From: Thermogemmatispora aurantia | Lineage (GTDB): Bacteria > Chloroflexota > Ktedonobacteria > Ktedonobacterales > Ktedonobacteraceae | Length of the DNA stretch: 64,000 nt | Assembly: GCF_008974285.1 (NCBI RefSeq) | Contig: NZ_BKZV01000001.1 | Coordinates: 295,319-359,318 of the forward strand | Direction of reading: 5' to 3' | Part shown: positions 18,891 to 36,232 of the stretch, in pieces | Numbering within the stretch: the first letter of the stretch is position 1 | Layout of the letters: every line of letters starts with the position of its first letter | The notes under the pieces: generated by a model | What the model saw: the letters and a program-made list of their open reading frames with translations, nothing else | What the model was told of the DNA's origin: nothing | The model's database searches: none | Translations under genes and position numbers: made by a program

Positions 18891-19263
18891 GCTTCAATCC
18901 TTTCTCGACCCGGCCCTGGGTCTCAACTGCAATGCAGAATGCAGATTCTCTTGCAAGCAGTAACAGCAGGTGAAAAAAGCTACCGGGTATTGAAGCGACG
19001 CGGTAGCCAGGTTCTGCTCAGCTTCGCTGCTTTCGCAGGCTTGTATAGTAGCATACTCCAGACATGCGAGCTGGTCAATACAGCATTCGTTCGGGTTTCA
19101 TACATTTCGAATTATCAGCAGGTGAGGATAAGCTTCCTTCCCTTGACGAGGGCAGCTTGACACCCTATAATCCTCTCAAAGAAAGCGATGTCAGCCAGTG
19201 CTCGGTGAGGCCGCAGGCAGCACCTGGCGCCGGCTTCCGTCCAGAAAGGACCTGTTCCCCCCT
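18891..19263. other. Divergent intergenic region
   Basis: Between the CoA ligase and the GxGYxYP gene. It holds a leftward promoter (19050-19078); no coding feature was recognised. Confidence 0.45.
19050..19078 (-). promoter_or_regulatory. Candidate promoter for the CoA ligase
   Basis: Read leftward: TTGACC (19078-19073), 17-bp spacer, TATGCT (19055-19050). It points at the CoA ligase with a leader of ~150 nt. Confidence 0.55.
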
Positions 19264-20895
19264 ATGGATGCCGAGCGAGGCGCGGCCTCGTTCTCTCTTG
19301 ATTGGCCAGTGAACGCCTTTTTCCCACAGCTGCAAGCGCCTCACAACCTGGCAGTGGCTGATCTACGCGATGCCTCCTTCGCTGTCAAGCTGGCAGCCAG
19401 CACGCTGGCCGGCCTGGTGAACGTGCCACAGCCACAGCTTTACCTGGCAACCTACGACGATGATCTTTTCTGGCTGCAAAGCGCCATCGCTCCCTGGCCT
19501 GTGCAGCTGGAAAGACTGGAAGCGCAAGGGGAGACCTTGCTCAGCGAGCTGATCGCCCGCTTTCAGGCGCGCATTGCTGGCTTCATTGTCTATGACCCAC
19601 AGCGCCCGGCCAGTATCAATGTGGCGACTACGCTGGCCGGTATCCAGGCGGGCGTGGTGGCAGCCCCCGAGCTGCTGCCGCTGCTACAAGCAGCTGGAAG
19701 GAAGCCAGTGCTGAGGGACCTGCGCCTTCAGCGCTGGGAGAGTGCGAGCCTGGCCTATCGTTGGGCAAGAGAGATCAGTCAGACCCAGAGATCACGACGA
19801 TCCCTGGCCGGTATGAAGCCAGAGATCGCCAGCGGCTTGCGCTCCTTCCTGGTAGCTACGCGCACCTTCGTCCACTGGCTCGATTCGCGCCCCTGGCAGT
19901 CCTCCGCAGGCCAGCAGCGCCAGCTCCTGGAGGAACTGCTCGCAGAGCTTCTCCCTGGCAGCATCCATCTGGGCTGGTTCCCCGACGAGGGAAGCGGGGT
20001 AACACTGGCTTCAGAGCGGGCCGTGGCGGTTCTGGCAAGCGACCATTGCAGCAATCTAGAGGTCTGGACTGCCCTGCAGCCCCTAGAGCTGATCGAACGC
20101 CTCCAGACCCTGGCTCAGCGCTATCGCCGTCAGCAGGATGAGCGCCCTCTGCCAGCCCTGGAGCCACGCGTCTACCTGTCTTTGACGATCAGTGACGGAG
20201 ATAACCTGCAATACACGCAGCATCGTATGCTGCATCTGTGGCGTGATCCGGCCCGCGGCAGATTCCCACTTGGCTGGACGATCGCTCCAGCGCTCCTGGA
20301 GGCCGCTCCCGCCCTGGCAGCCTATTACCTGGAGACAGCCAGCCCCCAGGATGAGCTGATCGCCGGCCCCAGCGGCGCCGCCTACATGTTCCCATCGAGC
20401 TGGCCAGCTGCCCAGCGGCCAGCCTTCCTGGAGCATAGCCAGCGCCTGCTCTCAGGAATGGGCCTCTCTCTCCTGCAGGTGCTCGATGGCGACTGGCGTC
20501 AGCGGTTGGGCCTGCCGCTTCCGGCTAGCATGCGCCTGTCTAATGTTGAGGAGCAGCGCGCCTTTATCGAGGCACTCCGGCCCGCTGGGCTGCGCGGTCT
20601 GCTCACAGGTGCTGGTGGCCTCACTCTAAGCTATAAGAAAATCATGGACGTGCCCGTCTATCACAATCTGGGGCTTGTCAGCAGCAGATCTCAGCTGGTG
20701 CACCTCGTTAGAGGACTGCAAGCCACGCATCATCGGCGACCGCTCTTCCTCCAACTCTATGTGCTGGCCTGGCGCCTGACACCCAGCGCCCTCTGGGAGG
20801 CTTTGCAGGAACTGCGTGAGATCGCTTATCCTGTAGCCCCGGGTCAGCTTCTGCAGCTCATTGCTCAACAAGGGGCAGGGGGAGCAGAATCGTGA
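19264..20895 (+). CDS. GxGYxYP-domain protein, putative glycoside-hydrolase-related
   Basis: ~543 aa. The C-terminal half carries SDGDNLQYTQHRM and, later, GPSGAAYMFPSSWP, which fits the GxGYxYP family signature; the N-terminal half (QLYLATYDDDLFWLQ and following) fits the matching N-terminal domain. The family is a putative glycoside-hydrolase clan with little experimental data. ATG at 19264 has AAAGGA 13 nt upstream; an in-frame GTG at 19198 is an alternative without a clear Shine-Dalgarno. Its stop codon overlaps the start of mftF, so the two are translationally coupled. That coupling suggests a role in building or trimming the mycofactocin glucan, which is inference. Confidence 0.75.
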   Translation: MDAERGAASFSLDWPVNAFFPQLQAPHNLAVADLRDASFAVKLAASTLAGLVNVPQPQLYLATYDDDLFWLQSAIAPWPVQLERLEAQGETLLSELIARFQARIAGFIVYDPQRPASINVATTLAGIQAGVVAAPELLPLLQAAGRKPVLRDLRLQRWESASLAYRWAREISQTQRSRRSLAGMKPEIASGLRSFLVATRTFVHWLDSRPWQSSAGQQRQLLEELLAELLPGSIHLGWFPDEGSGVTLASERAVAVLASDHCSNLEVWTALQPLELIERLQTLAQRYRRQQDERPLPALEPRVYLSLTISDGDNLQYTQHRMLHLWRDPARGRFPLGWTIAPALLEAAPALAAYYLETASPQDELIAGPSGAAYMFPSSWPAAQRPAFLEHSQRLLSGMGLSLLQVLDGDWRQRLGLPLPASMRLSNVEEQRAFIEALRPAGLRGLLTGAGGLTLSYKKIMDVPVYHNLGLVSSRSQLVHLVRGLQATHHRRPLFLQLYVLAWRLTPSALWEALQELREIAYPVAPGQLLQLIAQQGAGGAES

Positions 20896-22559
20896 TGAGT
20901 CCTCAGAGCTACTCTTATCCATCGCCTGGTTGTTACCGCCTGGCGCCTGGTCTGTGCCTGCTAGAAAGGGCAGCAGGCCGGCCAGGGGGACTGGTTATCG
21001 CTTCCTACCCGCTGCGCGTCTTGCGCCTTGGCCAGCAAGCCTGGCAGTTGCTCAACCTGTGTCGCCAAGAGCGCAGCAGCGAGGAGTTAGTTCGCCTGAG
21101 TGGACTTGCACCCAAGCGGGTGGCCATGCTCTGCCAGCAGCTCAGCGCCAAAGGGCTATTGGAGGCCGGCCCCCCACTGCCACCGAGGTCGTGGCCAGGA
21201 GTCTCCGTGATCGTGCCCACCTGCAACCGTGTCCGCCAGCTTGAGCGCTGCCTGCAGGCCATCCTTGAGCTGCGCTATCCATCACAGGCACTGGAAATCA
21301 TCGTGGCCGATGATGCTTCTCGCGATCAGACGCCGGCTTTGCTCACTCGCTTCGTTCCAGCCTTCGCCAGTCGTGGGGTGAGACTGCATTGTCTGCGCCA
21401 CGCCCGGCGTCAGGGAGCCGCAGGCGCCCGCAACAGTGGCGCCACCGCCGCTCGCTACGATCTCCTGGCCTTCGTCGATGATGACTGCGTGGTAACGCCA
21501 GACTGGCTCACCACCCTGGTACCACTCTTCAGCGAGACCGGCGTGGCCGCCGTCGGCGGTCAAATCCGCGCCTACGAAACCGGCAGCGTGCTGGGGCGCT
21601 ACGAGGATGTCCGTTCCTCGCTCTTCATGGGCCTGCAGCCGCAGGAGGTGCGCTTGAGTGGGCCGCTCACCTACCTTCCCACAGCCTGCTTACTCGTGCG
21701 CCGCGAAGCCTGGCAGGCTCTGGGCGGTTTTACTCCTCTGAGCTGCGGCGAGGATGTTGATTTCTGCTACCGGCTGCTCGCTCAGGGCTGGCGCATCCGC
21801 TATTGGCCCGCTCCCGAGAGCGTGGTCTACCATGACTATCGCACCCGCCTTGGGACGTTCCTGGGGACACGGGTGCGCTATGCCTCTGCCGAGGCTGTGC
21901 TCCAACAGCTTCACCCGCAGCAGCGCCGGATACTGCTGCTCCCACCTCGGGAAGCAAGTTTTGCCGCCCTGACACTCGGCAGCCTCTGGCAGCTTTTCAC
22001 CACTCGCCCCCTGGGTAGCCTTTTGCGGACCAGGTCACAGGGTCGGCAGCGCCCGAGCAGGACAGGGCAGGCGCGCCTCTCCCTCCTACTGGCACTTTTG
22101 GCTCTGCTGCTGCCTGGGGCCAGTACCTGGCGTCGCCGTCAGACTGCCCGGCTTGCTCACCTGCCGCTGACAGCCTGGCAAATCTGGCAGGCCACGCTGC
22201 GCAGTTACCTGGCCTACACCTACCACCTTTGCCGCCATCTGACCCGCTACTATACACTCGCGCTACTAGCCGCGGGCCTGCTCTTTCCGCCGCTTTTGGT
22301 GCTGGTCGGCCTACTTCAAGCCGTGGTGGTAGGCGTTGATTACGCGCGCCTGCGTCCGCGCCTGAGCCTGCCCGCATTCGCCCTCTACTCTCTGCTAGAG
22401 GATTGTGCTTACGCTCTCGGCCTGCTGCTCGGCTGCTGGAGGCAGCGCACCTGGCGGCCATTGCTAGCCGTGATAGAATGGAAGAATGCCACAGTTACCC
22501 AACTTGCTCAACCATCCGAGTCAGGCTCACCCTCTCCACCTTCACTTGACCAACGATAG
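20892..22559 (+). CDS. mftF: Mycofactocin glycosyltransferase MftF
   Basis: 555-aa membrane-associated family 2 glycosyltransferase. Residues ~1-95 are a PqqD-like domain (ending VAMLCQQLSAKGLLEAG) that in related systems handles peptide-derived substrates. Residues ~100-330 are GT2: SVIVPTCNRVRQLERCL, IIVADDASRDQTP, NSGATAARYDLLAFVDDDC (the DDD metal site) and GGFTPLSCGEDVDFCYRL. The C-terminal ~200 residues contain hydrophobic segments. PqqD plus GT2 is diagnostic of MftF, which adds beta-1,4-glucose units to mycofactocin. GGGGGAG precedes the GTG start; ATG three bases later is equally possible. It overlaps the upstream GxGYxYP gene and is followed by a hydrolase 28 bp on. Confidence 0.9.
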   Translation: MMSPQSYSYPSPGCYRLAPGLCLLERAAGRPGGLVIASYPLRVLRLGQQAWQLLNLCRQERSSEELVRLSGLAPKRVAMLCQQLSAKGLLEAGPPLPPRSWPGVSVIVPTCNRVRQLERCLQAILELRYPSQALEIIVADDASRDQTPALLTRFVPAFASRGVRLHCLRHARRQGAAGARNSGATAARYDLLAFVDDDCVVTPDWLTTLVPLFSETGVAAVGGQIRAYETGSVLGRYEDVRSSLFMGLQPQEVRLSGPLTYLPTACLLVRREAWQALGGFTPLSCGEDVDFCYRLLAQGWRIRYWPAPESVVYHDYRTRLGTFLGTRVRYASAEAVLQQLHPQQRRILLLPPREASFAALTLGSLWQLFTTRPLGSLLRTRSQGRQRPSRTGQARLSLLLALLALLLPGASTWRRRQTARLAHLPLTAWQIWQATLRSYLAYTYHLCRHLTRYYTLALLAAGLLFPPLLVLVGLLQAVVVGVDYARLRPRLSLPAFALYSLLEDCAYALGLLLGCWRQRTWRPLLAVIEWKNATVTQLAQPSESGSPSPPSLDQR

Positions 22560-22587
22560 CGTTGAAAGGAGGTGACGCAGGCAGACG

Positions 22588-23409
22588 ATGGCAGGAAGGC
22601 TGGAACCTGAATGGGGTTTTATTGAAGCTCGCGGTACGCGACTCTACTACGAAGTCGCCGGACGCGGTCATCCGCTGGTCCTGCTCCACAGCGGCTTGCT
22701 CGATCATCGCGCCTGGGACCCGCAGTTCATGGAGTTCGCTCGCTACTACGAGGTTGTGCGCTACGATCTACGCGGCTTCGGTCGCTCGGCGATGGGTAAC
22801 GTCGAGTACTCGGATGTCCGCGATCTTTACGATGTACTCAACGATCTGGCCATCGACCGTGCCTACTTGCTGGGCCTGTCAAGGGGCGGCAGGGTAGCCA
22901 TCGATTTCGCCCTGACCTATCCCGAGATGGTCGATGCCTTGATTCTGGCCGCCGCCAACATCAGCGGTTACGATAACTATATGCCGGAAACGCTGGAGCG
23001 CGGGAAGCGCATCGCCGCCGCTGCCCGGGCGCAGGATAAGGAGCAGCTCTATGAGCTGTGGGCCACTGATCCGGCGATGCCGCACGAGGACGAATATCCA
23101 GAAGCAGCACAGCGCTACCGAGAGCTATTGCGCGACTACAGCTTTGTGCACTACCTGAATCCAGTGCCCAGCGAGCAGCTCAGGCCACCCGCCCTGCAGC
23201 GTCTGGCAGAGATCCGCCAGCCGACCTTGATTCTGATCGGAGACGCAGACTCGCTGGAGATGCAGGCCCAGGCCGAGCTACTGGAAGCCGGCATCATCGA
23301 TGCCAAGAAGGTGGTTATTCGCGGCGCGCGGCACATGCTGAACCTCGAGCGCCCCGAGACCTTCAACCGAGCTGTGTTGACATTTCTACACAGTCTGGAG
23401 CGTCGCTAG
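22588..23409 (+). CDS. Alpha/beta-hydrolase
   Basis: 273-aa alpha/beta-hydrolase fold protein. LVLLHSGLLDHRAWDPQF is the oxyanion-hole strand, RYDLRGFGRS is the usual lid-side block, and LLGLSRGGRVAIDFA is the nucleophile elbow with the catalytic Ser. An acidic residue in LIGDADS and the His of GARHMLNLERPE complete the triad. AAAGGAGGTGA precedes the ATG with a long spacer. It is the third gene of a GxGYxYP-mftF-hydrolase operon, the last before a terminator-like hairpin. Substrates of this fold range from esters to lactones; a role in mycofactocin chemistry is only suggested by position. Confidence 0.88.
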   Translation: MAGRLEPEWGFIEARGTRLYYEVAGRGHPLVLLHSGLLDHRAWDPQFMEFARYYEVVRYDLRGFGRSAMGNVEYSDVRDLYDVLNDLAIDRAYLLGLSRGGRVAIDFALTYPEMVDALILAAANISGYDNYMPETLERGKRIAAAARAQDKEQLYELWATDPAMPHEDEYPEAAQRYRELLRDYSFVHYLNPVPSEQLRPPALQRLAEIRQPTLILIGDADSLEMQAQAELLEAGIIDAKKVVIRGARHMLNLERPETFNRAVLTFLHSLERR

Positions 23410-23489
23410 GCAGGCAGCGGCAGGGCCAGCAGCGATACGACAACAAGACAGCGAGATGTCTCCCATCCCGCACTGCATGCTGCACGCCT

Positions 23490-23521
23490 GTCGAGCACCG
23501 CCCCCCAGAGCAGTGCTCGAC
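23490..23521. terminator. Hairpin between convergent hydrolase and mftC genes
   Basis: GTCGAGCAC (23490-23498) and GTGCTCGAC (23513-23521) form a perfect 9-bp stem with a 14-nt loop. ACCTG repeats follow; there is no T-tract. Placed between two convergent genes. Confidence 0.5.
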
Positions 23522-23632
23522 CTGACCTGACCTGACTGCCGCTGCCTCCTGGCAACGTTTCTTGAATGTCCTGTCCCTCATGCTCGTTTCTCATGATCTT
23601 CCGACTACTATAGCGCTGTTATTACCTTTTAT

Positions 23633-24865
23633 CTATTCTTGCCGCAGGAGAGCGTCCTCCTGCATGGCCACCGACGAGCACGGGGCTTCAGGCGAAGCGT
23701 GCAATGGATCAACAGGACTACCAGCGAGCACACACTCGGGATCACGCACCTGCAGGCTGCGCTGGACGAACCACTTGGTGGCCGGGCAACCACCGTGACA
23801 GAGGTCATAGTGCACACAGCCGCCACAGGAGCCAGCCCCCATTTGGCGGTAGAAGGCAAAGACCGGCGAGTGCCGCCAGATCTCACGAAAACTCTGTTCA
23901 TGCAGATTGCCGGCCTCGAACTCGGGCGTCTGGAAAAAGGCACAGGGATAGACCTCGCCTTCGGGGCAGATACAGCAGGTCGCCGTCGCTGCACCACACA
24001 TATCCAGCCCTGCCAGACGCTCGCCGAAAGCATTCAAGTGGAAAAACGAATCGGCAGTCAGCACATCGGGATGCTCCCGCAACCAGGCCACGAAGCTGCG
24101 ATACTGCTCACGCGTGGGATGTAGCTCTTCCCATACGGCGCGCCCACGACCAGAAGGGCGCAGGCGCGTTACGCGCAGCTTGGCGCCAAAGTCGCCGGCA
24201 ATCGCATAGAGACGATCCAATTCGGGGAAGCTATAACGCGTCAGGACACTATTGACGGTTAAACTCAGGCCCTCGGCAGCCAGACGCTCCAGGCCACGCA
24301 TGGCTCGCCGAAACGCATCTTGCCCCCGAATGCGATCATTGGTCTCAGGGGTGGCACCGTCCAGGCTGACCTGAAAATAAATCGGCTCCAGAGCAGCCAG
24401 GCGTTGAGCGCGCTCAGGAGTGATCAGCGTGCCATTCGTGCTGACGCACATCACCAGGTCACGCTCGCGGCAGCGCTCCAGCACGCGCCAGATGCCCGGA
24501 TACATGAACGGCTCGCCGCCCCCAAAGTGGATCTGGAAGACCTGCATCTCGGCCAGCTCATCGACCACGGCCAGTGCCTGCTCTGTCGTCAGCTCACGCG
24601 GACGGCGTTTCCCCGAGGAGGAGAGGCAATGCACGCAAGTCAGATTGCAGGCAGCCGTGATCTCCCAGGTGACCGTGATTGGCGCCGAGAGTCCCCCTCG
24701 CAGGAAACGCTGCGAGCCGCTGGTCTGCGCAGGCAAGAGCGGGTCACCAGTCTCGGCAAAAGCAGCTCTGGCCAGAGGATGAAGAGCGCCAGACTCCGCC
24801 TCCGCCCGCCTCTGGTCCCCCATCCACTGGTGGCGACGCCCATGAAACTGTACGAATTGGATCAT
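23633..24865 (-). CDS. mftC: Mycofactocin radical SAM maturase MftC
   Basis: 410-aa radical SAM/SPASM enzyme. CNLTCVHC (Cys 73, 77, 80) binds the SAM-cleaving 4Fe-4S cluster, followed by IHFGGGEPFMYP (GGE motif). The C-terminal SPASM region has many Cys: CGAATATCCICPEGEVYPC and CGGCVHYDLCHGGCPA. In characterised systems MftC oxidatively decarboxylates the C-terminal Tyr of MftA and crosslinks it to the preceding Val. The first ~60 residues are not conserved radical-SAM sequence. GAAGGAG precedes the start. It lies 105 bp downstream of mftB on the same strand. The MftC call rests on neighbours as well as sequence. Confidence 0.92.
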   Translation of the reverse strand: MIQFVQFHGRRHQWMGDQRRAEAESGALHPLARAAFAETGDPLLPAQTSGSQRFLRGGLSAPITVTWEITAACNLTCVHCLSSSGKRRPRELTTEQALAVVDELAEMQVFQIHFGGGEPFMYPGIWRVLERCRERDLVMCVSTNGTLITPERAQRLAALEPIYFQVSLDGATPETNDRIRGQDAFRRAMRGLERLAAEGLSLTVNSVLTRYSFPELDRLYAIAGDFGAKLRVTRLRPSGRGRAVWEELHPTREQYRSFVAWLREHPDVLTADSFFHLNAFGERLAGLDMCGAATATCCICPEGEVYPCAFFQTPEFEAGNLHEQSFREIWRHSPVFAFYRQMGAGSCGGCVHYDLCHGGCPATKWFVQRSLQVRDPECVLAGSPVDPLHASPEAPCSSVAMQEDALLRQE

Positions 24866-24970
24866 GCCTTTCTGCTCCTTCTTCTACGAGTGCTCCGCTT
24901 GGCGGCCCATGGCCGTCCTGGCCCGCCGTAGAGAGGCCGGGTCCTAGACAACCATCGCGCATTGCTCACT

Positions 24971-25300
24971 CTACTCAGCCGCCGTCTCCTCAGGAGCTGG
25001 CCCAGCTACCACCTCGGCCTCTAGATAGCCGCGTTTCCGCAGCTCATCGAGTGCCGTCAAGAGGCGGGCCTTAGCTCCTGCGGAAGAGACTTGCTGTTCG
25101 ATGGCCGCACTGAGATCGCCAGCAAACTGCTCTCGCGCTAAGAGGAGCAGATCAATCAGACGTGGAGAATTGACGAATGAGAGCGTTCCCCGATCAGCAC
25201 AGCCATACTTATAGAGGATGCCGCCAAAGGCCTCGCGCCGAATCTTGACCTCCGGTAGCAGACGATAGCGGTAGCCCGCCGAATGTGCTGTCATGGTCAT
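24971..25300 (-). CDS. mftB: Mycofactocin precursor-peptide chaperone MftB
   Basis: 109-aa PqqD-like RiPP recognition protein. RLLPEVKIRREAFGGILYKYGCADRGTLSFVNSPRLIDLL matches the MftB pattern well, with the C-terminal helical half (LLTALDELRKRGYLEAEVV) that forms the peptide-binding fold. MftB binds MftA and presents it to MftC. ATG at 25300 is preceded by AAGGA; a second Met two codons on is an alternative. Promoter and palindrome upstream are annotated separately. With mftC it forms a two-gene transcript running away from mftA. Confidence 0.9.
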   Translation of the reverse strand: MTMTAHSAGYRYRLLPEVKIRREAFGGILYKYGCADRGTLSFVNSPRLIDLLLLAREQFAGDLSAAIEQQVSSAGAKARLLTALDELRKRGYLEAEVVAGPAPEETAAE

Positions 25301-25331
25301 AGCAGTCCTTCTTTCTACCTGGTGGTCAGGC

Positions 25332-25348
25332 AGACAGGCAGCCTGTCT
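25332..25348. promoter_or_regulatory. 17-bp palindrome upstream of mftB
   Basis: AGACAGGC-A-GCCTGTCT, two perfect 8-bp arms around one base, ending 32 bp before the mftB start. It lies within the predicted mftB leader. It could be a repressor operator or, as RNA, a 7-bp hairpin with a CAG loop close to the ribosome-binding site. Confidence 0.5.
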
Positions 25349-25445
25349 ACTGCGAAGGCAGGGGCCAGGTGACCCCTAGTGTCCCAATTCCAAAGCCAGC
25401 TTGCTTACCGCGCGAGCGGACGCAGCGAGAACGGTATACAGAGGA

Positions 25446-25475
25446 AGCATACTCAGAGATCTATCCCAGAGTCAA
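25446..25475 (-). promoter_or_regulatory. Candidate promoter for mftBC
   Basis: Read leftward: TTGACT (25475-25470), 18-bp spacer, TATGCT (25451-25446). It gives a leader of ~140 nt for mftB. Confidence 0.5.
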
Positions 25476-25557
25476 GGGCGCCAGTCTGAAGCGTTAGATA
25501 CTGTAGGGGAGAGAGCGCGAGACCCCGTCCACAGCTCCCCCTTGTTAGCTAGAACAC

Positions 25558-25586
25558 TTGGCAGACATGACACCGCGTGCTACACT
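25558..25586 (+). promoter_or_regulatory. Candidate promoter for the PBP gene
   Basis: TTGGCA (25558-25563), 17-bp spacer, TACACT (25581-25586), ~100 bp before the start codon. Confidence 0.6.
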
Positions 25587-25686
25587 TGCCTGGATCTTAC
25601 CTAACAGCAAGCAAGATCGATAGAAGAGACACAACAGGCAAGAGAGCACAAAAACTGTTCCGAGACAGACGCAAGGATCGAACGTC

Positions 25687-27321
25687 ATGAATATCAATTC
25701 GGCCATACGCCGTCTCAACCAGATCTTCATCGTGCTCTTCCTCGGGCTGAGTCTTGGGCTTGTCTACTGGCAAGTGGCAGTCGCGCAACAGGTCACTTCG
25801 AATATTCATAATATTCGCCAGTGCATGAAAGACCATGCCCCGGTACGTGGCAAGATCTATGACCGCAACGGGGTACTGCTGGCCGAGTCCAAGCCGATTG
25901 ATCCCAACAACCCTTTTAAGGGGGTGCTTTGCGGCTACCAGCGCCATTACTATCTGGATGGCATGCCCTCGCTCGCCAACTTGATTGGCTTCTATATCAG
26001 CCCCCTCTTTAACTCGACAGGAATCGAGCACGCCTTTGACGACTACCTGAGCGGGCGGGCCGGTTTAACGGAACTGACCAACAATCTTAACCTGATCCTC
26101 CACCGCCCTCCCGTGGGTGATAATATCTACTTGACGATCGATACGCGCATTCAGAAGATTGTCGAGCGCGATTTTGACAAGTATGCGCCAAGCTACAACC
26201 CACCTGTGCCAGAACTTAAGATCGATAACGATAACGTTTTTGCCACCAACCGCGGCGCGGTGATCGTCACCGATCCTCATACGGGGGAGATTCTGGCCAT
26301 GGTGACGCGTCCGACATACGATAGCAACCGCGTGGCCGCTGGCGACCTGGCATATTATAACCAGCTCTTGCGCAATCCAGATGCGCCGCTACTAGAGCGT
26401 CCCGTCCAGGGTCAGTATGTGCCCGGTTCAGTCTACAAGGCGATGACCTTGCTGGCGGCGCTGGACACCGGCACCTACCAGTTGAATACGCCTTCGTTTG
26501 ACTACCAGCATGCAGTCGGACCAGTGACGATCGGTGGCGAGGTCTTCGCTCCCCAGCTGAGCAATATCTACCACGTCAGCTATGCACGCACGTTCCCGGT
26601 GAGCATGAATATGGGCTTCTCTCACTCGGATAACGTGATGTTCGCCGTTATCGGCTCTAAGCTGGGGGCAGATACCTGGCTGGAATACAATAAACGCTTC
26701 TACGTAGGCCAGGATATCCCCTTCGACTTACCTGTTGCCCGGAGTTCGGTTCTTCCACCTAACGGGCAACTGCCCCCAAACTTGCTGGCAGAGAACTCCT
26801 TTGGTCAGGGCGTGGATCTCGTGACGCCGATGCTCATTTCATTGATCGATGACGCAATCGCCAACAATGGTGTGCTGATGCGCCCGATGCTGGTCTCACG
26901 TATTCAGGCACCAGATGGCACTATCATCAAGTCGATGTCTCCTCAGACGCTGAGTACGCCGGTTTCAGAGCAGACAGCCGCCTCCGCCCGTGAAGCAATG
27001 TACGGCGTGGTGCGCTGCGGCTCGGGATCGGTGATTCCCGAACTCTATAACTCTCCCTGGAATATTATTGCGAAGACCGGCACCGGCCAGGTGGGTGGCG
27101 GCAAGGCCGCCCATGGCTGGCTGATGACCCAGGCTCCTTACCAGGACCCGCGCTTGACTATTGTAAGCATGCGCGAGAATGCTGGCGAGGGTGCCAACGT
27201 CAATGGTCCAGCAGTGGCAGCGATGTATAACGACATTTACACCAGCGTGCTGAAACTGCAGCAACCGGCTCCCGCCGACCCCTCGGTGCCGTACTGCGCA
27301 CAACACGGCCTGTGGACCTAG
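25687..27321 (+). CDS. Penicillin-binding transpeptidase (PBP/FtsI-like)
   Basis: 544 aa. One N-terminal membrane anchor (LNQIFIVLFLGLSLGLVYWQVAV, ~10-32) precedes a short PBP dimerisation segment (APVRGKIYDRNGVLLAES) and a transpeptidase domain. Active-site motifs: SxxK in VPGSVYKAMT, SxN in SHSDN and KTG in IAKTGTGQVGGG. It would crosslink peptidoglycan outside the membrane, like class B PBPs of the FtsI/PBP2 group. Its dimerisation domain is shorter than in E. coli PBP3. AAGGA precedes the ATG. It sits between mftB and mftA but has its own promoter and a strong terminator, so its place there looks like insertion rather than shared function. Confidence 0.9.
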   Translation: MNINSAIRRLNQIFIVLFLGLSLGLVYWQVAVAQQVTSNIHNIRQCMKDHAPVRGKIYDRNGVLLAESKPIDPNNPFKGVLCGYQRHYYLDGMPSLANLIGFYISPLFNSTGIEHAFDDYLSGRAGLTELTNNLNLILHRPPVGDNIYLTIDTRIQKIVERDFDKYAPSYNPPVPELKIDNDNVFATNRGAVIVTDPHTGEILAMVTRPTYDSNRVAAGDLAYYNQLLRNPDAPLLERPVQGQYVPGSVYKAMTLLAALDTGTYQLNTPSFDYQHAVGPVTIGGEVFAPQLSNIYHVSYARTFPVSMNMGFSHSDNVMFAVIGSKLGADTWLEYNKRFYVGQDIPFDLPVARSSVLPPNGQLPPNLLAENSFGQGVDLVTPMLISLIDDAIANNGVLMRPMLVSRIQAPDGTIIKSMSPQTLSTPVSEQTAASAREAMYGVVRCGSGSVIPELYNSPWNIIAKTGTGQVGGGKAAHGWLMTQAPYQDPRLTIVSMRENAGEGANVNGPAVAAMYNDIYTSVLKLQQPAPADPSVPYCAQHGLWT

Positions 27322-27346
27322 TCATGGCTTAGATCTTGTCGGCTTT

Positions 27347-27396
27347 AGGCTCCACGCCTGGTAGGATGCCGATGCTCCTGACCAGGCGTGGAGCCT
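27347..27396 (+). terminator. Rho-independent terminator of the PBP gene
   Basis: AGGCTCCACGCCTGGT (27347-27362) pairs perfectly with ACCAGGCGTGGAGCCT (27381-27396), 16 bp with an 18-nt loop, followed by CTTTCTTTAT. It isolates mftA from the PBP transcript. Confidence 0.85.
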
Positions 27397-27457
27397 CTTT
27401 CTTTATCGACCGAGGGGTCTCTTCGGGCAGATCCCTCCTGCGTTTGCTTGCCTGGCC

Positions 27458-27486
27458 TTGTCAGCCGCTCTCAAGGATGATATTCT
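27458..27486 (+). promoter_or_regulatory. Candidate promoter for mftA
   Basis: TTGTCA (27458-27463), 17-bp spacer, TATTCT (27481-27486). It lies between the PBP terminator and mftA, giving a leader of ~120 nt. Confidence 0.6.
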
Positions 27487-27614
27487 TGAATAAGACTGGC
27501 ATGAGCCAGTCGAGAAGAGAAAGAGAGGCCACTACCAGGTGTCTGGAGCTTTCGCTCCCCTTGCCCTGGCCGCGGCGCTTCATCAGGCTAGCCCTAGAAG
27601 GAGCAACAGCAAGC

Positions 27615-27833
27615 ATGGAGTTCCTCTTTGAGCATGATCGTCGATACTTCTCCGCAGAAGAGCAGTCTGCCTGCAGGCAGACAGAGCCAGCGCCGGCCTT
27701 TTCGCTGGAAGGCGAGCAGGCTATAGGGGCTGCGTCAGAGAGAGAGGCAGAGCTGGCCGAGGACGAGGAGGAGTTTGAAGAGGAGCTGATTATCGAGGAC
27801 TTCACGATCGATGGCATCTGCGGAGTCTACTAA
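27615..27833 (+). CDS. mftA: Mycofactocin precursor peptide MftA (long form)
   Basis: 72-aa precursor. The C-terminus reads FTIDGICGVY, matching the conserved MftA tail (IDGxCGVY); MftC acts on the final Val-Tyr. Residues ~45-62 are very acidic (ELAEDEEEFEEELIIED), as in known MftA leaders. The N-terminal ~40 residues (MEFLFEHDRRYFSAEEQ and on) are an extension; typical MftA peptides are only ~30 aa. AGAAGGAG lies 11 nt before the ATG, which supports this start; a longer in-frame reading exists upstream but has no ribosome site. It overlaps the next gene by 23 nt. The identity is firm, the function of the extension unknown. Confidence 0.93.
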   Translation: MEFLFEHDRRYFSAEEQSACRQTEPAPAFSLEGEQAIGAASEREAELAEDEEEFEEELIIEDFTIDGICGVY

Positions 27834-28677
27834 TCTAGCAGCTAGAGCGCGCTTTGCTGATCGCGTGGTCCTGATCACCGGTGCAGCGCGTGGCCAGGGT
27901 CGCGCGCATGCCCTGGCTTTCGCTCGTGAAGGAGCGCGCCTGGTAATCTGCGATACTGACCGGCAATATCGCACGGTTCCTTATTCGCTGGCCAGCCCCG
28001 AGGAGCTGGCCGCTGTGGCCAGGGAGATTGAGGCCCTGGGACGCCCAGTGATCGCCGCTCAGGTGGATGTGACCAACCTCCCGGCTATGGAGGCCCTGGC
28101 CGAACGCGCGCGCCGCGAGCTGGGACCGATCGATGTGGTGGTAGCCAATGCCGGACTCTACTCCTTCGCTTTAAGCTGGCAGATGACCGAAGAGCAGTGG
28201 GACGAGACTGTCAATGTCGATCTCAAGGGGGTCTGGATTACCTGCAAGGTGGCTATTCCTCAGATGCTGGAGCGGCGCCAGGGGAAAATTATCTGTATCG
28301 GCTCAACTGCCAGCTTTAAGGGAATGGATCACCTGGCTCACTATGTGGCCGCCAAGCATGGTGTCATCGGGCTGGTAAAGACGCTGGCACGCGAGCTGGC
28401 TCCCTACAATATCAATGTCAATGCCGTCTGCCCCACCAGTGTGGCTACCTCCATGTGCCTCAACCAGGCACTCTATGACCTCTTCGCCGGCGGCCCCGGC
28501 CCTCAAGCTACGTACGAGCACATGGTCAGCCAGATGAACCAGATGAATCTCTTTAGCGATCGTAATCTGCTGCCACCCGAGGATGTCAGCGCCGCTGTAC
28601 TCTGGTTAGCCTCCGATGAGGCACGCCACTTAACGGGCTGCGCCCTGCCCGTTGATGCCGGCTATCTGACTCGCTAG
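27811..28677 (+). CDS. Mycofactocin-coupled SDR family oxidoreductase
   Basis: 288-aa classical short-chain dehydrogenase. VVLITGAARGQGRAHALAFA is the nicotinamide-binding loop, VVANAG the stabilising strand, and STASFKGMDHLAHYVAAKHG holds the catalytic Ser, Tyr and Lys. The insertion after the second strand (CDTDRQYRTVPYSLASPEEL) is characteristic of the mycofactocin-dependent subfamily, where the tightly held NAD is reoxidised by mycofactocin. Its ATG is inside mftA, overlapping by 23 nt, with GAGGA upstream. It ends VDAGYLTR. The alcohol substrate is unknown. Confidence 0.92.
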   Translation: MASAESTNLAARARFADRVVLITGAARGQGRAHALAFAREGARLVICDTDRQYRTVPYSLASPEELAAVAREIEALGRPVIAAQVDVTNLPAMEALAERARRELGPIDVVVANAGLYSFALSWQMTEEQWDETVNVDLKGVWITCKVAIPQMLERRQGKIICIGSTASFKGMDHLAHYVAAKHGVIGLVKTLARELAPYNINVNAVCPTSVATSMCLNQALYDLFAGGPGPQATYEHMVSQMNQMNLFSDRNLLPPEDVSAAVLWLASDEARHLTGCALPVDAGYLTR

Positions 28678-28874: not shown

Positions 28875-29030
28875 GCGGTCATAATTTCAGTATGCTAGAA
28901 CCGATCGTTTTCCAGCATGGTAGGAACAGGCTCATTTCAGGTGTTATGCTGGGCGGTCATAATTTCAGTATGCTAGAACCGATCGTTTTCCAGCATGGTA
29001 GGAACAGGCTCATTTCAGGTGTTATGCTGG
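28875..29030 (+). repeat. Perfect 78-bp tandem duplication in the leader of the 29047 gene
   Basis: Copy 1 spans 28875-28952 and copy 2 spans 28953-29030; I find no mismatch. Each copy contains CCAGCAT and ATGCTGG as a 7-bp inverted pair (28912-28918 with 28946-28952; 28990-28996 with 29024-29030). Copy 2 ends 16 bp before the start codon. Confidence 0.95.
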
Positions 29031-30887: not shown

Positions 30888-31274
30888 CCTTGCTGACCAA
30901 CTACACTACTACACCCGCTGTTACACAGGGGCCATCATCAGCATGTAGAAAGGGTCCTTCCCCACGCTCTCCCTCATGGCCGCTCTTCTCTTCTCTCCTT
31001 ACTTACAAAAAGTAAGAGAGGAACATGATAGTATACAACATGGCAAGGCTGGGCGCAAGGCTAGCAGACCGAGTTTATCACGGGGTTTATCGCCGGGTTT
31101 GTTGTGAGTAGACAAAGAGCGGCCATTTTATTGCACCAGAGCGACATTGTAGAACAAGCATCCTTTCCAGTATACTTATGGATGATCGTATTTGTCGCTG
31201 ACTTGGGCAGCCAGTCCGGGCGCCGCGTCGGCCCGGGGCTCTCAGCGTTCGCAAGAGAAGAGAGGACTTCAACG
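30888..31274. other. Divergent intergenic region before the alcohol dehydrogenase
   Basis: Contains an inverted repeat CTTACTT-acaaa-AAGTAAG (30998-31016), typical of a repressor operator, two close GTTTATC repeats near 31074-31090 and a promoter at 31147-31176. No gene is seen. Confidence 0.5.
31147..31176 (+). promoter_or_regulatory. Candidate promoter for the alcohol dehydrogenase
   Basis: TTGTAG (31147-31152), 18-bp spacer, TATACT (31171-31176), about 100 bp before the start codon. Confidence 0.5.
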
Positions 31275-32381
31275 ATGAAAACCAGAACCGCCGTCATCTA
31301 CGAACCTGGTACCCCCATCCGCGTTGAAGAGATCGAACTTGACCCGCCCAAAGAGCAGGAAGTGCTCGTACGCATGGTAGCCGCTGGCGTCTGCCATTCC
31401 GATTACCACGTGGTCAAAGGGGACCTGCCAGCCTACTTACCAATGGCTCTCGGACATGAAGGGGCTGGCATCGTCGAGCAGGTCGGTCCTGGCGTCAGCG
31501 ACCTGAAGCCGGGCGACCACGTTCTCATGAGCTTCATTCCCGCCTGCGGCAGCTGTCCCTCCTGTGTTTCCGGGCACAGCAACCTCTGCGACAAGGGGGC
31601 AGGCACGCTGAGCGGTCCTTTGCTGGACGGCACCTTTCGCATGCATGGCGAAAAAGGCGATATTGGCCAGTTCTGCTACATCGGCAGTTTCAGCGAATAC
31701 ACCGTTGTGCCCGTTATGTCGGTGGTCAAGATCGCCGATTACTATCCCCTGAGCCGGGCCGTGCTTGTGAGCTGCGGCGTCCCCACTGGCGTCGGCTCCG
31801 TCATCCATCGAGCCCGCGTCACCCCCGGCAGCACCGTTATGGTCATCGGCTGCGGCGGCATCGGCATGAACATCGTGCAGGGAGCGGCCATCGCCGGGGC
31901 ACGCATGATCATCGCGGTCGATATCCACGATTTCAAGCTGGAGAAGGCCAAAGAGTTCGGCGCCACCCACACTATCAATTCCAGCCAGGAAGACCCCGTC
32001 AATAAGGCCCTGGAATTGACCTGGGGCGTCGGCGTCGACTATGCCTTCGAAGCGATCGCCACACCGGAGACCATTGCCCAGGCCTTCAATGCTACCGCCA
32101 AGAATGGGACCGTGGTAGTGGCTGGCCTCTCGCCTTTTCTGGCCCAAGCCATTCCTATCTCGCCGCTCAATCTAGTCCTCTACCAGAAGACCCTCATGGG
32201 TACCCTCTTCGGCGATTCGCAGCCGCGCAACGACATTCCTATGCTGCTGCGCATGTACGAGAGCGGCAAGATCAAGCTCGATGAACTGGTGACGCGAACC
32301 TACAAGCTGGACCAGATCAATGAAGCCTACGACGATCTGCTCGCCGGGCGGAACATTCGAGGCGTGATTGAGTTCAGCTAG
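31275..32381 (+). CDS. NDMA-dependent-type zinc alcohol dehydrogenase
   Basis: 368-aa medium-chain dehydrogenase. Catalytic zinc ligands are C40 (GVCHSD) and H61/E62 (GHEGAG); structural zinc Cys are 91, 94, 97 and 105 (CGSCPSCVSGHSNLC). The nucleotide fold begins VMVIGCGGIGMN. The sequence matches the mycofactocin-associated, NDMA-dependent alcohol dehydrogenase group, in which NAD(H) stays bound and mycofactocin accepts electrons. ATG at 31275 is chosen over an upstream in-frame start because the family begins MKTRTAV and AGAGGA lies 8 nt upstream. It lies 2.6 kb from the mycofactocin SDR and starts the catabolic gene group. Confidence 0.93.
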   Translation: MKTRTAVIYEPGTPIRVEEIELDPPKEQEVLVRMVAAGVCHSDYHVVKGDLPAYLPMALGHEGAGIVEQVGPGVSDLKPGDHVLMSFIPACGSCPSCVSGHSNLCDKGAGTLSGPLLDGTFRMHGEKGDIGQFCYIGSFSEYTVVPVMSVVKIADYYPLSRAVLVSCGVPTGVGSVIHRARVTPGSTVMVIGCGGIGMNIVQGAAIAGARMIIAVDIHDFKLEKAKEFGATHTINSSQEDPVNKALELTWGVGVDYAFEAIATPETIAQAFNATAKNGTVVVAGLSPFLAQAIPISPLNLVLYQKTLMGTLFGDSQPRNDIPMLLRMYESGKIKLDELVTRTYKLDQINEAYDDLLAGRNIRGVIEFS

Positions 32382-32770
32382 TCTGCCTTTACTTGCGGCT
32401 TCCTGACCCAGCTGACCCGCCTGCTGGCAGAAGTTTACCTGGAGGACAAAACTGGCTCTGTATCCTTCTCCTTAACGCCGAGGAGGATGCAGAGCCACGC
32501 CATGCTGAATTAGCTATCCCCTTCCTTTGCAGCAAGAGAGAGCCAACACTTGCGTACGGCTCCTCGCCTGCCACGCTCTGTCAGGTAGCTAACTACCCCG
32601 GACAGGGTTCAGTCTGTTGTTAGCTGGCTACTAGTAAAAATTCGCACCAATCACGTACAATAACTCCAGTGGAGGCGTGATTGTCTGTCCCGACTGCCGC
32701 CGTCAGAGACGACTGCCCCGCGAGCGGGCAGCGGGCGAGAGACGAGGCAGCAAGCAAAGGAGCAAGGACC
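32382..32770. other. Gap between alcohol dehydrogenase and thiolase
   Basis: 389 bp without a gene. A hairpin at 32453-32497 is the main feature; TACAAT at 32656-32661 is a possible -10 without a matching -35. Confidence 0.45.
32453..32497 (+). terminator. Hairpin after the alcohol dehydrogenase
   Basis: TGGCTCTG (32453-32460) pairs with CAGAGCCA (32490-32497) and an inner CTCC/GGAG plus ATC/GAT extends the stem. No T-tract follows. Confidence 0.5.
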
Positions 32771-33934
32771 ATGAAGCACCAGGAAGCTGTCATTGTTGCA
32801 GCGGTTCGCACACCCATTGGCATCGGCAAGCCTGACAGAGGGAAGCTCACCGGCATCCGCCCCGACGAGCTGGCCGCTATGACTCTGGCCGAAGTTGTGC
32901 GCCGGGCCGGCATCGAGAAAGGGCTTGTCGAGGACGTGATCATGGGCTGCGTGACCCAGATCGGTGAGCAAGGCCTCAATATAGGGCGAGTCGCCCCCCT
33001 CATCGCCGACTTTCCCGTCGAGACCTGCGGTGTCAGTGTGAATCGCATGTGCGGTTCCAGCGAGCAGGCTATTCACTTTGCCGCCCAGGCCATTATCTCC
33101 GGCACTATCGACGTCGCCATTGCCGCCGGCGTTGAGAGCATGAGCCGCGTTCCAATGGGTTCGGACAAGGCCGGCGCCAGCTTTAGCGAGAAGCTCATCG
33201 CGCGCTACCCGTTGGTACCCCAGGGCATTTCTGCCGAGCTGGTAGCAGAGAAGTGGCACATCACACGCGAAGAGGCCGACGCCTTCTCGTTAGAGAGCCA
33301 CCGCCGTGCAGCCGCTGCCACGGCAGAAGGACGCTTTAAGCCGGAGATTATGCCGATCGAGGTGACCCTGCCCGACGGCAGCCGCGAAGTCATGATCAGC
33401 GACCAGGGTATTCGCCCCAATACTTCGCTAGAGCAACTCGCTGCCCTTAAGACCGTCTTTAAGCCCGATGGGATCATTACCGCGGGTAACTCCAGCCAGA
33501 TCAGCGATGGCGCTGCTGCTGTTCTCTTGATGTCCGACAGCAAGGCCCAGGAGCTGGGACTCAAACCCCTGGCGCGCATTGTGGCGATGGCGACAGCTGG
33601 CGTCGATCCTGTGCTGATGCTCAGCGGCCCCATCCCCGCCACCCGGAAGGTCCTCAAGAAGGCCGGGCTCCGTCTGGCCGATATCGATCTCGTAGAAATC
33701 AACGAGGCCTTCGCTTCTGTACCGCTGGCCTGGGCTCGCGAGCTTGATCCCGATATGAGCCGCGTCAACGTCAACGGCGGAGCCATCGCCCTGGGTCATC
33801 CCCTGGGCGCCAGCGGCGCTCGTCTGATGACAACGCTCGTCCACGAGCTGCAGCGCCGCGGCGGACGCTACGGTCTGCAGACCATGTGTATCGGTCACGG
33901 CATGGCGACAGCCACGATCATTGAAAGGATCTAG
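32771..33934 (+). CDS. Acetyl-CoA acetyltransferase (thiolase)
   Basis: 387-aa thiolase. VSVNRMCGSSEQAIHFAAQ has the acyl-accepting Cys; NGGAIALGHPLGASGARL carries the catalytic His; MCIGHGMATATI carries the second Cys. The start is set by AAAGGAGCAAGGACC before ATG 32771. It could carry out acetyl-CoA condensation or the last step of beta-oxidation. It is followed by two acyl-CoA dehydrogenases with 3 and 6 bp between genes, so the three form an operon, most likely for breakdown of an acyl or side-chain substrate. Confidence 0.94.
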   Translation: MKHQEAVIVAAVRTPIGIGKPDRGKLTGIRPDELAAMTLAEVVRRAGIEKGLVEDVIMGCVTQIGEQGLNIGRVAPLIADFPVETCGVSVNRMCGSSEQAIHFAAQAIISGTIDVAIAAGVESMSRVPMGSDKAGASFSEKLIARYPLVPQGISAELVAEKWHITREEADAFSLESHRRAAAATAEGRFKPEIMPIEVTLPDGSREVMISDQGIRPNTSLEQLAALKTVFKPDGIITAGNSSQISDGAAAVLLMSDSKAQELGLKPLARIVAMATAGVDPVLMLSGPIPATRKVLKKAGLRLADIDLVEINEAFASVPLAWARELDPDMSRVNVNGGAIALGHPLGASGARLMTTLVHELQRRGGRYGLQTMCIGHGMATATIIERI

Positions 33935-33937
33935 CCT

Positions 33938-35044
33938 ATGCTCGATTTCGCCCCCACCGAAGAGCAGGAGGAGATTCGCAAGCTCGCTCAGAGCATCGCC
34001 CTTGATCATCTGCGGCCCCATGCCCGCAAGGCCGAGACAGAACGTGACAGTCCTAATGAGCTGCGGCTGACTCTGGCCCAAACTGGCCTGACGACTCCCT
34101 TCCCCGAGGAATATGGGGGATCTGGCCCCCTGGAAGCTGTGACCTATAGCCTGATCGCCGAGGAGCTGGCCTACGGCGACCCGGGGCTGGCGCTCAATAT
34201 CGTCGGCTCCCTGATGGGGCCGCTCACGGTCTGGCTGGCCGGCAGTCGCGAGCAACAGGAGCGCTACCTGCCCCCCTTTGGCAATTCTACCAGCGGCTAC
34301 TTGCAGCGTGGCAGCCTGGCTTTCGCCGAGCGCACCGGTGGCTATACCCTGGCAGATATCCATTTGCAAGCGCGTCGTACCAGTGATGGCTATCTCCTTA
34401 ACGGCACTAAGCGCGACGTTGTGCATGGTCAGCACGCAGATCTGCGCGTGGTCCTGGCACGCCTAGCCGAGCATGAGAGCGAGAGCGCCGAGGGCAAACT
34501 CTGCGCCTTCGTGCTTTCCGACGCTCAGGAGGGACTGAGCATTCAGGCCGAAGAGGAGAAGCTGGGGTTGCAGGCTGCTCCCAGCGCCACCTATCTCTTC
34601 AACCAGGTTCAGCTGCCAGCCGAGGCCCTGCTTGGGGAAGCAGGCAGTAGCGGCGTTGTGCGCGCTGCGACCCTCTATCAGATCTTGCGCGCCGCTATTG
34701 CCTGCGGCACCGCGCGCGCCGCCTTCGAATATTGCTCGGCCTACGCTCGCGAACGCATCGCCTTCGGGCGCCCGATTGTCTCTTACCAGGGCATCGCCTT
34801 CATTATCGCCGAGATGGCCATGAAGCTCGATGCTGCTCGCCTCCTTACCTGGCGTGCCGCTTGCTCGTGGGATCGCGGCGAAGCTGATGAGACGCTAATC
34901 TACGAGGCAGAGTGTGCCCAACGGCAGGCTGTCAAAATGGCTCAAGCGGCCACAACGGATGCGATTCAAGTCATGGGTGGAGCTGGTTTTATGCAGGACC
35001 ACCCCGCCGAAATGTGGATGCGTGATGCTGCTGCGATGGAGTGA
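33938..35044 (+). CDS. Acyl-CoA dehydrogenase-like protein, probably non-catalytic partner
   Basis: 368 aa. It has the N-terminal helical and middle beta regions of acyl-CoA dehydrogenases, but the usual TEPxxGSD flavin motif reads AERTGGYTLADI, and the chain ends at MRDAAAME, before the region that normally carries the catalytic Glu (YEGTxxIQR). It is therefore either truncated or the partner of a heteromeric dehydrogenase, as in mycobacterial FadE pairs. GAAAGGA, inside the end of the thiolase gene, precedes the ATG. Second gene of a three-gene operon. Confidence 0.85.
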   Translation: MLDFAPTEEQEEIRKLAQSIALDHLRPHARKAETERDSPNELRLTLAQTGLTTPFPEEYGGSGPLEAVTYSLIAEELAYGDPGLALNIVGSLMGPLTVWLAGSREQQERYLPPFGNSTSGYLQRGSLAFAERTGGYTLADIHLQARRTSDGYLLNGTKRDVVHGQHADLRVVLARLAEHESESAEGKLCAFVLSDAQEGLSIQAEEEKLGLQAAPSATYLFNQVQLPAEALLGEAGSSGVVRAATLYQILRAAIACGTARAAFEYCSAYARERIAFGRPIVSYQGIAFIIAEMAMKLDAARLLTWRAACSWDRGEADETLIYEAECAQRQAVKMAQAATTDAIQVMGGAGFMQDHPAEMWMRDAAAME

Positions 35045-35050
35045 TGTCCC

Positions 35051-36232
35051 ATGATCGATTTTACTCTGAGTAAAGCGCAACAGGCGGCCCGTGACTACGC
35101 CCACCAGGTGGCCCTGGAGGAGATGCGTCCGCTCTCGCTGGAATGCGACCGCACCGAAGAGATCCCTGAGTCGTTTTTCTGGAACATGCAGCGCCGTTAC
35201 TGGGGTGGTGCTGCCGCTCAAGCACGGGCCTACGGCCAGGATGAAGGCGTCAGACAGGAGAACCTGCTGAGTGTCATCTCACAGGAAGAAATGGCCTGGG
35301 GTGATGCGGCTCTGGCCACGGCTATTCCCGGGCCAGGTCTGGCGGCTCCGCCGATTCTATCGCAGGGTACCCCCGAGCAGCAGGCGCGCTTCCTGAGCAT
35401 CTATATGGATGGCCAGCTTCACTGGGGCGCCCTGGCCCTGACCGAGCCAGGCATCGGCTCCGATGTAGCTGGCATGTCGACCACCGCCGTGCTCGACGGC
35501 GATGAGTGGGTCATTAACGGCCATAAGCACTATATCACCAATGGCGCCCGTGCCGACCTGATCGTGACCTTCGCCACGATTGATAAGAGCCTGGGGCGCG
35601 AGGGCATCCGTCCTTTCGTGGTTCCCAAAGGCACGCCGGGCCTGATCGTGGGTCGCATTGAGAAGAAGATGGGTCTGCGCGCCTCCCAGACGGCAGAACT
35701 CATTTTTGACAATTGCCGCATTCCCAAAGAGAACTTGCTCGCGGGACGCGGCGAGAGGAAAGCGGGCTTCAAAGCCGCAATGGGCACACTCGACGCTACC
35801 AGGCCAATGGTGGGTGCCCTGGCGGTGGGCATCGCTCGCGCGGCTTACGAGGCGGCTTGCGAGTGGCTACGCGAGGAGCTGCCCGCCGGCTATCCTCCAC
35901 ACAAGCGGCGCGCCTGGGAGGAGGAGCTAAAGGAGCTAGGCCAAGAGATCGAGATGGCCCGTTTCCTGGTCTGGCGTGCCGCCTGGATGGCCGATCGCCG
36001 CATTCCTAACTCAAAAGAGGCTTCCATGAGCAAGGCTTATGCCGGCGCTTTGGTCATGAAAGCCACGGCCACCGCGGTGCGCATCACCGCTCCTGGCGAG
36101 GAGAGCGAGCGGAAATTGCTGATCCAGAAGTGGTTCCGCGACGCTAAGGTCTTCGATATCTTCGAGGGCACTGCCCAGATTCAGCGCCTGGTCATCGCCC
36201 GGCGCCTCTTCCCCAACATCGATATTCCTTAG
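35051..36232 (+). CDS. Acyl-CoA dehydrogenase
   Basis: 393-aa flavoprotein that oxidises acyl-CoA to the trans-2-enoyl-CoA. It has LALTEPGIGSDVAGM (flavin/substrate region), NGHKHYITNG, LRASQTAELIFDNCRIP and the C-terminal FDIFEGTAQIQRLVIARRLF with the catalytic Glu. The first ~100 residues are somewhat unlike common family members. It starts 6 bp after the preceding dehydrogenase-like gene, with GATGGAG at good distance. The complete motif set supports this subunit as the catalytic one of a pair. Confidence 0.93.
   Translation: MIDFTLSKAQQAARDYAHQVALEEMRPLSLECDRTEEIPESFFWNMQRRYWGGAAAQARAYGQDEGVRQENLLSVISQEEMAWGDAALATAIPGPGLAAPPILSQGTPEQQARFLSIYMDGQLHWGALALTEPGIGSDVAGMSTTAVLDGDEWVINGHKHYITNGARADLIVTFATIDKSLGREGIRPFVVPKGTPGLIVGRIEKKMGLRASQTAELIFDNCRIPKENLLAGRGERKAGFKAAMGTLDATRPMVGALAVGIARAAYEAACEWLREELPAGYPPHKRRAWEEELKELGQEIEMARFLVWRAAWMADRRIPNSKEASMSKAYAGALVMKATATAVRITAPGEESERKLLIQKWFRDAKVFDIFEGTAQIQRLVIARRLFPNIDIP

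Follow-up and report, generated by a model that had tools for sequence, protein, structure and literature searches.

A split mycofactocin locus in Thermogemmatispora without mftD or mftE, and a distant OYE/ETF cassette as candidate for the MftD step

What completes mycofactocin in an organism whose mft locus carries neither mftD nor mftE? In the described pathway, cyclisation of the core is the work of MftC, AHDP is then set free by MftE and deaminated by MftD, and MftF adds the sugars (PMC7491314, PMC11778925); MftD, MftE and MftR are not universal in mycofactocin systems (Haft 2011, PMC3023750). In M. smegmatis, an mftE mutant still made mycofactocin via an unknown peptidase and accumulated glycyl-AHDP-n, while an mftD deletion stopped at AHDP/AHDP-n (PMC7491314); loss of MftE should therefore be tolerable, while loss of MftD needs a substitute. 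We analysed such a locus in a 64,000-nt stretch of DNA (the window; G000:C1:295319-359318) from the 5.6-Mb genome of Thermogemmatispora (Ktedonobacteria, Chloroflexota), a hot-environment soil bacterium whose MftC is 84-95% identical to those of T. tikiterensis, T. carboxidivorans and other Thermogemmatispora. A survey of named genomes by peptide patterns, which were narrow, returned 7 loci only.

The locus occupies 19.2-28.7 kb of the window and uses both strands. Its rightward operon begins with a gene for a GxGYxYP-family protein (19198-20895, + strand, alternative ATG at 19264; PF14323 158 bits, plus three N-terminal domains), preceded by a promoter-like site (19143-19171, + strand; TTGACG-17-TATAAT, 11/12, a consensus match only). 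Overlapping this ORF by 4 nt is mftF, encoding the mycofactocin glycosyltransferase (20892-22559, + strand; TIGR03965 367.8 bits, cut-off 280), followed by a gene for an esterase/PcaD-like alpha/beta hydrolase (22588-23409, + strand) that is intact at this locus only in Thermogemmatispora. Leftward run mftB, encoding the MftA-binding chaperone (24971-25300, - strand; TIGR03967 78.1 bits, cut-off 33), and mftC, encoding the radical SAM maturase (23633-24865, - strand; TIGR03962 429.2 bits, cut-off 265), whose C73-C77-C80 motif was located in an alignment of 7 orthologues. A PBP2-like transpeptidase gene (25687-27321, + strand) lies between mftB and mftA (27615-27833, + strand; TIGR03969 29.7 bits, cut-off 25), which encodes a 72-aa precursor ending in EEELIIEDFTIDGICGVY and is followed by a gene for a mycofactocin-coupled SDR dehydrogenase (27811-28677, + strand; TIGR03971 332.3 bits, cut-off 300; best PDB match carveol dehydrogenase). 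Upstream of mftA-SDR is a weak promoter-like site (27458-27486, + strand; TTGTCA-17-TATTCT with TG), again a consensus match only. The neighbourhood extends beyond 28.7 kb through DUF6847 and VOC genes to an NDMA-dependent (mycofactocin-type) zinc alcohol dehydrogenase (31278-32381, + strand; TIGR03989 501.3 bits, cut-off 440), the profile beginning at residue 59 of ORF 31104-32381; the first-pass annotation had left this gene out. MftF, MftC, MftB, MftA, the SDR and the alcohol dehydrogenase all exceeded their curated NCBIfam cut-offs, and these scores confirmed the arrangement given in the first-pass annotation, with mftF rightward, mftBC leftward and the PBP gene before mftA. An Rfam search of the window returned no match. 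Just 5' of the DUF6847 gene (29047), a perfect 78-nt tandem duplication (28875-29030) also doubles a small ORF.

Six Thermogemmatispora genomes share this gene order. In a second genus (G020) the PBP gene and an intact hydrolase gene are missing at the locus while mft is kept, and in a third (G019) the GxGYxYP gene is missing as well. Because the order is kept across Thermogemmatispora, with these losses in the two sister genera, the mft locus is one conserved neighbourhood of ~13 kb with an unusual, rearranged order rather than a set of dispersed genes. The PBP gene, absent at the locus in both G020 and G019, was rejected as a member of the system.

The coupling of mftA is conserved too. Its start was picked by AGAAGGAG upstream of the ATG, its C-terminus carries the canonical IDGxCGVY core, and the terminal sequence given above is identical in 8 genomes. 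Although mftA had been described as standing alone with its own terminator, no terminator-like site follows it in the window sequence, and the gene is not isolated, because the SDR ATG (27811) sits within the MftA core codons, giving a 23-nt overlap in 8/8 related genomes. In other mft clusters it is mftB, not an SDR gene, that overlaps or follows mftA.

Compared with the mycobacterial mftRABCDEFG cluster, Thermogemmatispora shares the MftA core, orthologues of MftB, MftC and MftF, and the partner SDR and NDMA-type alcohol dehydrogenase. It differs in having no MftD, MftE or MftG and no MftR-sized gene nearby, in coupling mftA to the SDR rather than to mftB, in placing mftBC and mftF on opposite strands, and in carrying the other half at a second locus. 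As previously noted for the locus, mftD and mftE are missing, and neither they nor a TetR gene of MftR size occur among the window's non-overlapping ORFs of at least 130 aa. We ran the genome search suggested for creatininase-like MftE and for MftD: family searches gave no MftE match in the window's genome, and nothing reached the 471-bit MftD cut-off in 8 genomes (best 272 bits), so that an MftD or MftE encoded elsewhere in the genome was rejected. MftG is absent from all eight mft-bearing Ktedonobacteria. Each genome has one MftC over cut-off, which excludes a complete second mft cluster that could make this one dispensable.

Two further genes were considered and rejected. A radical SAM gene at G000:C1:673785 does not represent a second mft system, as by sequence and order it stands in a pqqB-C-D-E-like set (G000:C1:~671400-674900; L051:16389-19925), followed by LanM-like and peptidase-ABC-transporter-like genes (judged from sequence). 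Because this set is in the same genome, the organism may make both PQQ and mycofactocin. An MftD-like gene that has a pyruvate-dehydrogenase context and stands ~9 kb from the pqq set was not accepted as the system's MftD, since it scores about equally on lactate dehydrogenase/oxidase models.

A second locus on the same contig, ~145 kb from the mftF operon (G000:C1:158876-170501), encodes two mycofactocin-type OYE flavoenzymes, ETF alpha and beta, and FixC-like and FixX-like proteins. The OYE genes stand in tandem (C1:158876-162988); OYE_2 scored 885 bits on TIGR03997, over the cut-off of 793, while the first OYE scored 694 bits on that model and 428 on TIGR03996 (cut-off 628), both below. Downstream of the pair, to ~170501, lie genes for a GH15-type amylase, an mft_etfA-like protein, a PIG3-type oxidoreductase, FixC-like and FixX-like proteins and an mft_etfB-like protein, with the best ETF matches also below cut-off (mft_etfA 181 bits, cut-off 240; mft_etfB 171 bits, cut-off 200). 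The cassette genes follow the order of complete MftD-less clusters in other Chloroflexota, where MftE comes after EtfB. No peptidase gene was seen within the second locus, whose additional genes encode an alpha-glucan phosphorylase, the GH15-type amylase and the PIG3-type quinone oxidoreductase. As far as contigs allow, the locus is kept in other Thermogemmatispora and in G020. The earlier proposal that MftE and MftD must be elsewhere or replaced thus holds in outline: MftD is not elsewhere and this cassette would take its place; for the absent MftE the analysis identified no substitute.

The cassette belongs to an already known kind of mft cluster, as is clear from the NCBIfam names ('mycofactocin system FadH/OYE family oxidoreductase 1/2' and 'mycofactocin-associated ETF') and from a report on Saccharopolyspora (PMC11162802). 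Clusters of this OYE/ETF type in Streptomyces sp. NBC_00564, Haloterrigena turkmenica and Saccharopolyspora share the OYE pair, EtfA, FixC-like protein, ferredoxin and EtfB in the same order and have no MftD, except that haloarchaeal clusters carry a single OYE rather than a pair. Elsewhere the cassette stands beside mftC and MftE is usually present, whereas Ktedonobacteria lack MftE and have the cassette ~145 kb from the mft locus. Near mftC in f15 Chloroflexota (L098, L099, L101) there is a gene for a VWA (MadC-like) protein; haloarchaea (L137, L138) have VWA and AAA-ATPase genes beside the cassette, and an AAA-ATPase-like gene also occurs in L099/L100. The two proteins may act as a pair in the assembly or maturation of OYE-type systems.

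The OYE proteins share an FMN, 4Fe-4S and ADP/FAD-type architecture with trimethylamine and histamine dehydrogenases and with naphthoyl-CoA and 2,4-dienoyl-CoA reductases. Similarity was slightly higher to the reductases (naphthoyl-CoA reductase 281 bits, 2,4-dienoyl-CoA reductase 265) than to the amine dehydrogenases (histamine dehydrogenase 247, trimethylamine dehydrogenase 232). Trimethylamine and histamine dehydrogenases oxidise amines and hand the electrons on to ETF or another carrier. When aligned to trimethylamine dehydrogenase at its catalytic Tyr-x-x-His and Asp, the OYE proteins matched the His, carried Gln in place of Tyr and did not conserve the Asp position. Their sequence does not separate a reductase from an amine dehydrogenase.

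MftD and this OYE type were mutually exclusive in the 32 mft systems compared, which came from Chloroflexota, Streptomyces, other Actinobacteria, haloarchaea and SAR324: 8 had MftD only and 24 OYE only, with none having both and none neither. MftC over cut-off was found in 19 of 400 Chloroflexota genomes. Four of the 19 have MftD (702-717 bits) and no OYE_2 at E<=1e-60; the remaining 15 lack MftD over cut-off, and 13 of these have OYE_2 over cut-off, the other two (G079, G019) having fragments at contig ends. The 12 plasmid records with MftC divided likewise: beside mft, four carry MftD without an OYE cassette and eight carry an OYE without MftD. Record-wide searches with OYE_2 and MftD queries gave disjoint lists within these plasmid records. 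In Streptomyces plasmids the OYE pair sits directly 3' of mftC, the position held by mftD in the other type, and in a SAR324 contig MftC is followed by an OYE. An MftC tree with 31 rows, which omits one near-duplicate and has long branches, required at fewest 3 changes of the MftD/OYE state, with the starred branches forcing 2 changes and a bootstrap range of 2-4, compared with a mean of 7.3 for shuffled labels. Independent cases are few, because the states cluster by lineage.

On this evidence we propose, with a probability of about 0.6, that the window locus makes up one half (precursor, maturation and glycosylation) of a mycofactocin system of OYE/ETF type that is spread over two loci and in which an OYE enzyme performs the MftD step. 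MftB would hold MftA, with its Val-Tyr core, for cyclisation by MftC, and glycosylation would fall to MftF. The oxidative deamination of AHDP to premycofactocin would be carried out by one of the two FMN/4Fe-4S/FAD flavoenzymes of the OYE family; exclusion with MftD, gene position and the Saccharopolyspora case, in which clusters have TIGR03997 and no mftD and S. erythraea makes a methylated mycofactocin (PMC11162802), make the cassette the best candidate for an MftD substitute. Judging from the ETF and FixC/FixX genes, electrons would reach the quinone pool through ETF alpha/beta, a FixC-like ETF:quinone oxidoreductase and a FixX-like ferredoxin. The cassette would probably take over the role of MftG as well, the reoxidation of reduced mycofactocin, and the OYE pair may serve the MftD step, the MftG step or both. 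The cofactor would serve the SDR co-translated with mftA and the downstream NDMA-type alcohol dehydrogenase. With MftE lacking, cleavage of the MftA leader probably falls to a general peptidase whose gene lies elsewhere. To a fuller version we give somewhat less than even odds: that the cassette substitutes for both MftD and MftG through a shared respiratory outlet, and that in Ktedonobacteria, where it occupies a separate locus and MftE is lacking, an unrelated peptidase releases the core.

The alternative that survives best, although we consider it unlikely, is that the cassette only reoxidises mycofactocinol, as MftG does, while an FMN alpha-hydroxy-acid oxidase acts as a distant MftD on AHDP. 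The window's genome does encode two such oxidases (263-272 bits on the MftD model), and with no MftG in any of the eight Ktedonobacteria the cofactor needs some other way of being reoxidised. However, lactate oxidase/dehydrogenase models fit both proteins about equally well, their genes lie in lactate/pyruvate and xanthine-dehydrogenase contexts, and their identity to true MftDs is only 34-45%, against 62-87% between MftDs from different phyla. Nor can this solution be general, because a search at E<=1e-20 gave no member of that oxidase family in five of the 15 MftD-less, OYE-type Chloroflexota (G079, G130, G221, G249, G359). The cassette also excludes MftD itself, and the four MftD-bearing Chloroflexota lack both MftG and the cassette.

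With MftD and MftE both lost, the end product could instead be a mycofactocin-like compound that stays at the AHDP or glycyl-AHDP stage, as the intermediates of the two M. smegmatis deletions would suggest (PMC7491314). We regard this as improbable, since the mycofactocin-dependent SDR and the NDMA-type alcohol dehydrogenase, both of which need a redox-active acceptor, are kept alongside, and since S. erythraea still makes its methylated mycofactocin from a cluster without MftD (PMC11162802).

An equally small chance attaches to MftE having only escaped the assemblies, or having diverged so far that it passes as another creatininase. Full-length creatininase-family genes below the MftE cut-off do occur in G041 (130 bits, cut-off 172) and G042, but a generic creatininase model fits the G042 protein as well as MftE does, and similar creatininases are found in class members without MftC. 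The creatininase family had no match at E<=1 in G000, G039 or G020, and single-contig T. carboxidivorans, G040 and G019 gave short partial matches only, none better than E 6e-4.

Least probable of all is the earlier suggestion that the hydrolase or GxGYxYP gene, both kept in the mftF operon of all six Thermogemmatispora genomes, performs the missing MftE or MftD step, because neither family has redox chemistry, the hydrolase is closest to esterases and PcaD and survives as an internally shortened 93-aa ORF in G020, where mft is kept, and GxGYxYP, a general Ktedonobacteraceae family that is probably not specific to mycofactocin, has members in 26 of the 47 class genomes, of which 18 are without MftC, and is missing from the mft locus in G019.

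The literature searched contained no paper joining mycofactocin with Thermogemmatispora. Against that literature, what is new is that the system has two separate loci, that Ktedonobacteria have lost MftE, that mftA overlaps the SDR gene and that MftD and OYE exclude each other across phyla, as is tying the cassette to the MftD and MftG questions. Roughly one in four genomes with MftC has no MftG, and its replacement has been called an open question (PMC11778925), while premycofactocin formation without MftD has so far only been remarked on (PMC11162802). The strict exclusion singles out one cassette as candidate for the replacement of MftD and MftG alike, and the MftE-less Ktedonobacteria offer a natural setting for finding the 'unknown peptidase' to which the mftE mutant of M. 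smegmatis pointed (PMC7491314).

Several minor observations concern the genes around the two loci. In Thermogemmatispora the OYE pair is flanked by the alpha-glucan phosphorylase and GH15-type amylase genes (G000:C1:156212-165355; L126:8213-17356), a putative link to the mycofactocin sugar chain, which in its known form is beta-1,4. NDMA-dependent alcohol dehydrogenases over cut-off were also found at G001:C3:90109-91209 and G044:C211:2979-4076, in genomes without MftC over cut-off, and run against an 'only with mycofactocin' rule. On the G044 contig (L148; a related genome, 84% complete), genes for an acyl-CoA ligase, a GxGYxYP protein and the NDMA-type alcohol dehydrogenase adjoin one another, the arrangement to be expected if the mft block had dropped out of this neighbourhood or had never been inserted there. 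In the window, a thiolase and two acyl-CoA dehydrogenase genes lie 3' of the mycofactocin-type alcohol dehydrogenase (32681-36232), a neighbourhood which suggests that the product of this dehydrogenase feeds acyl-CoA oxidation.
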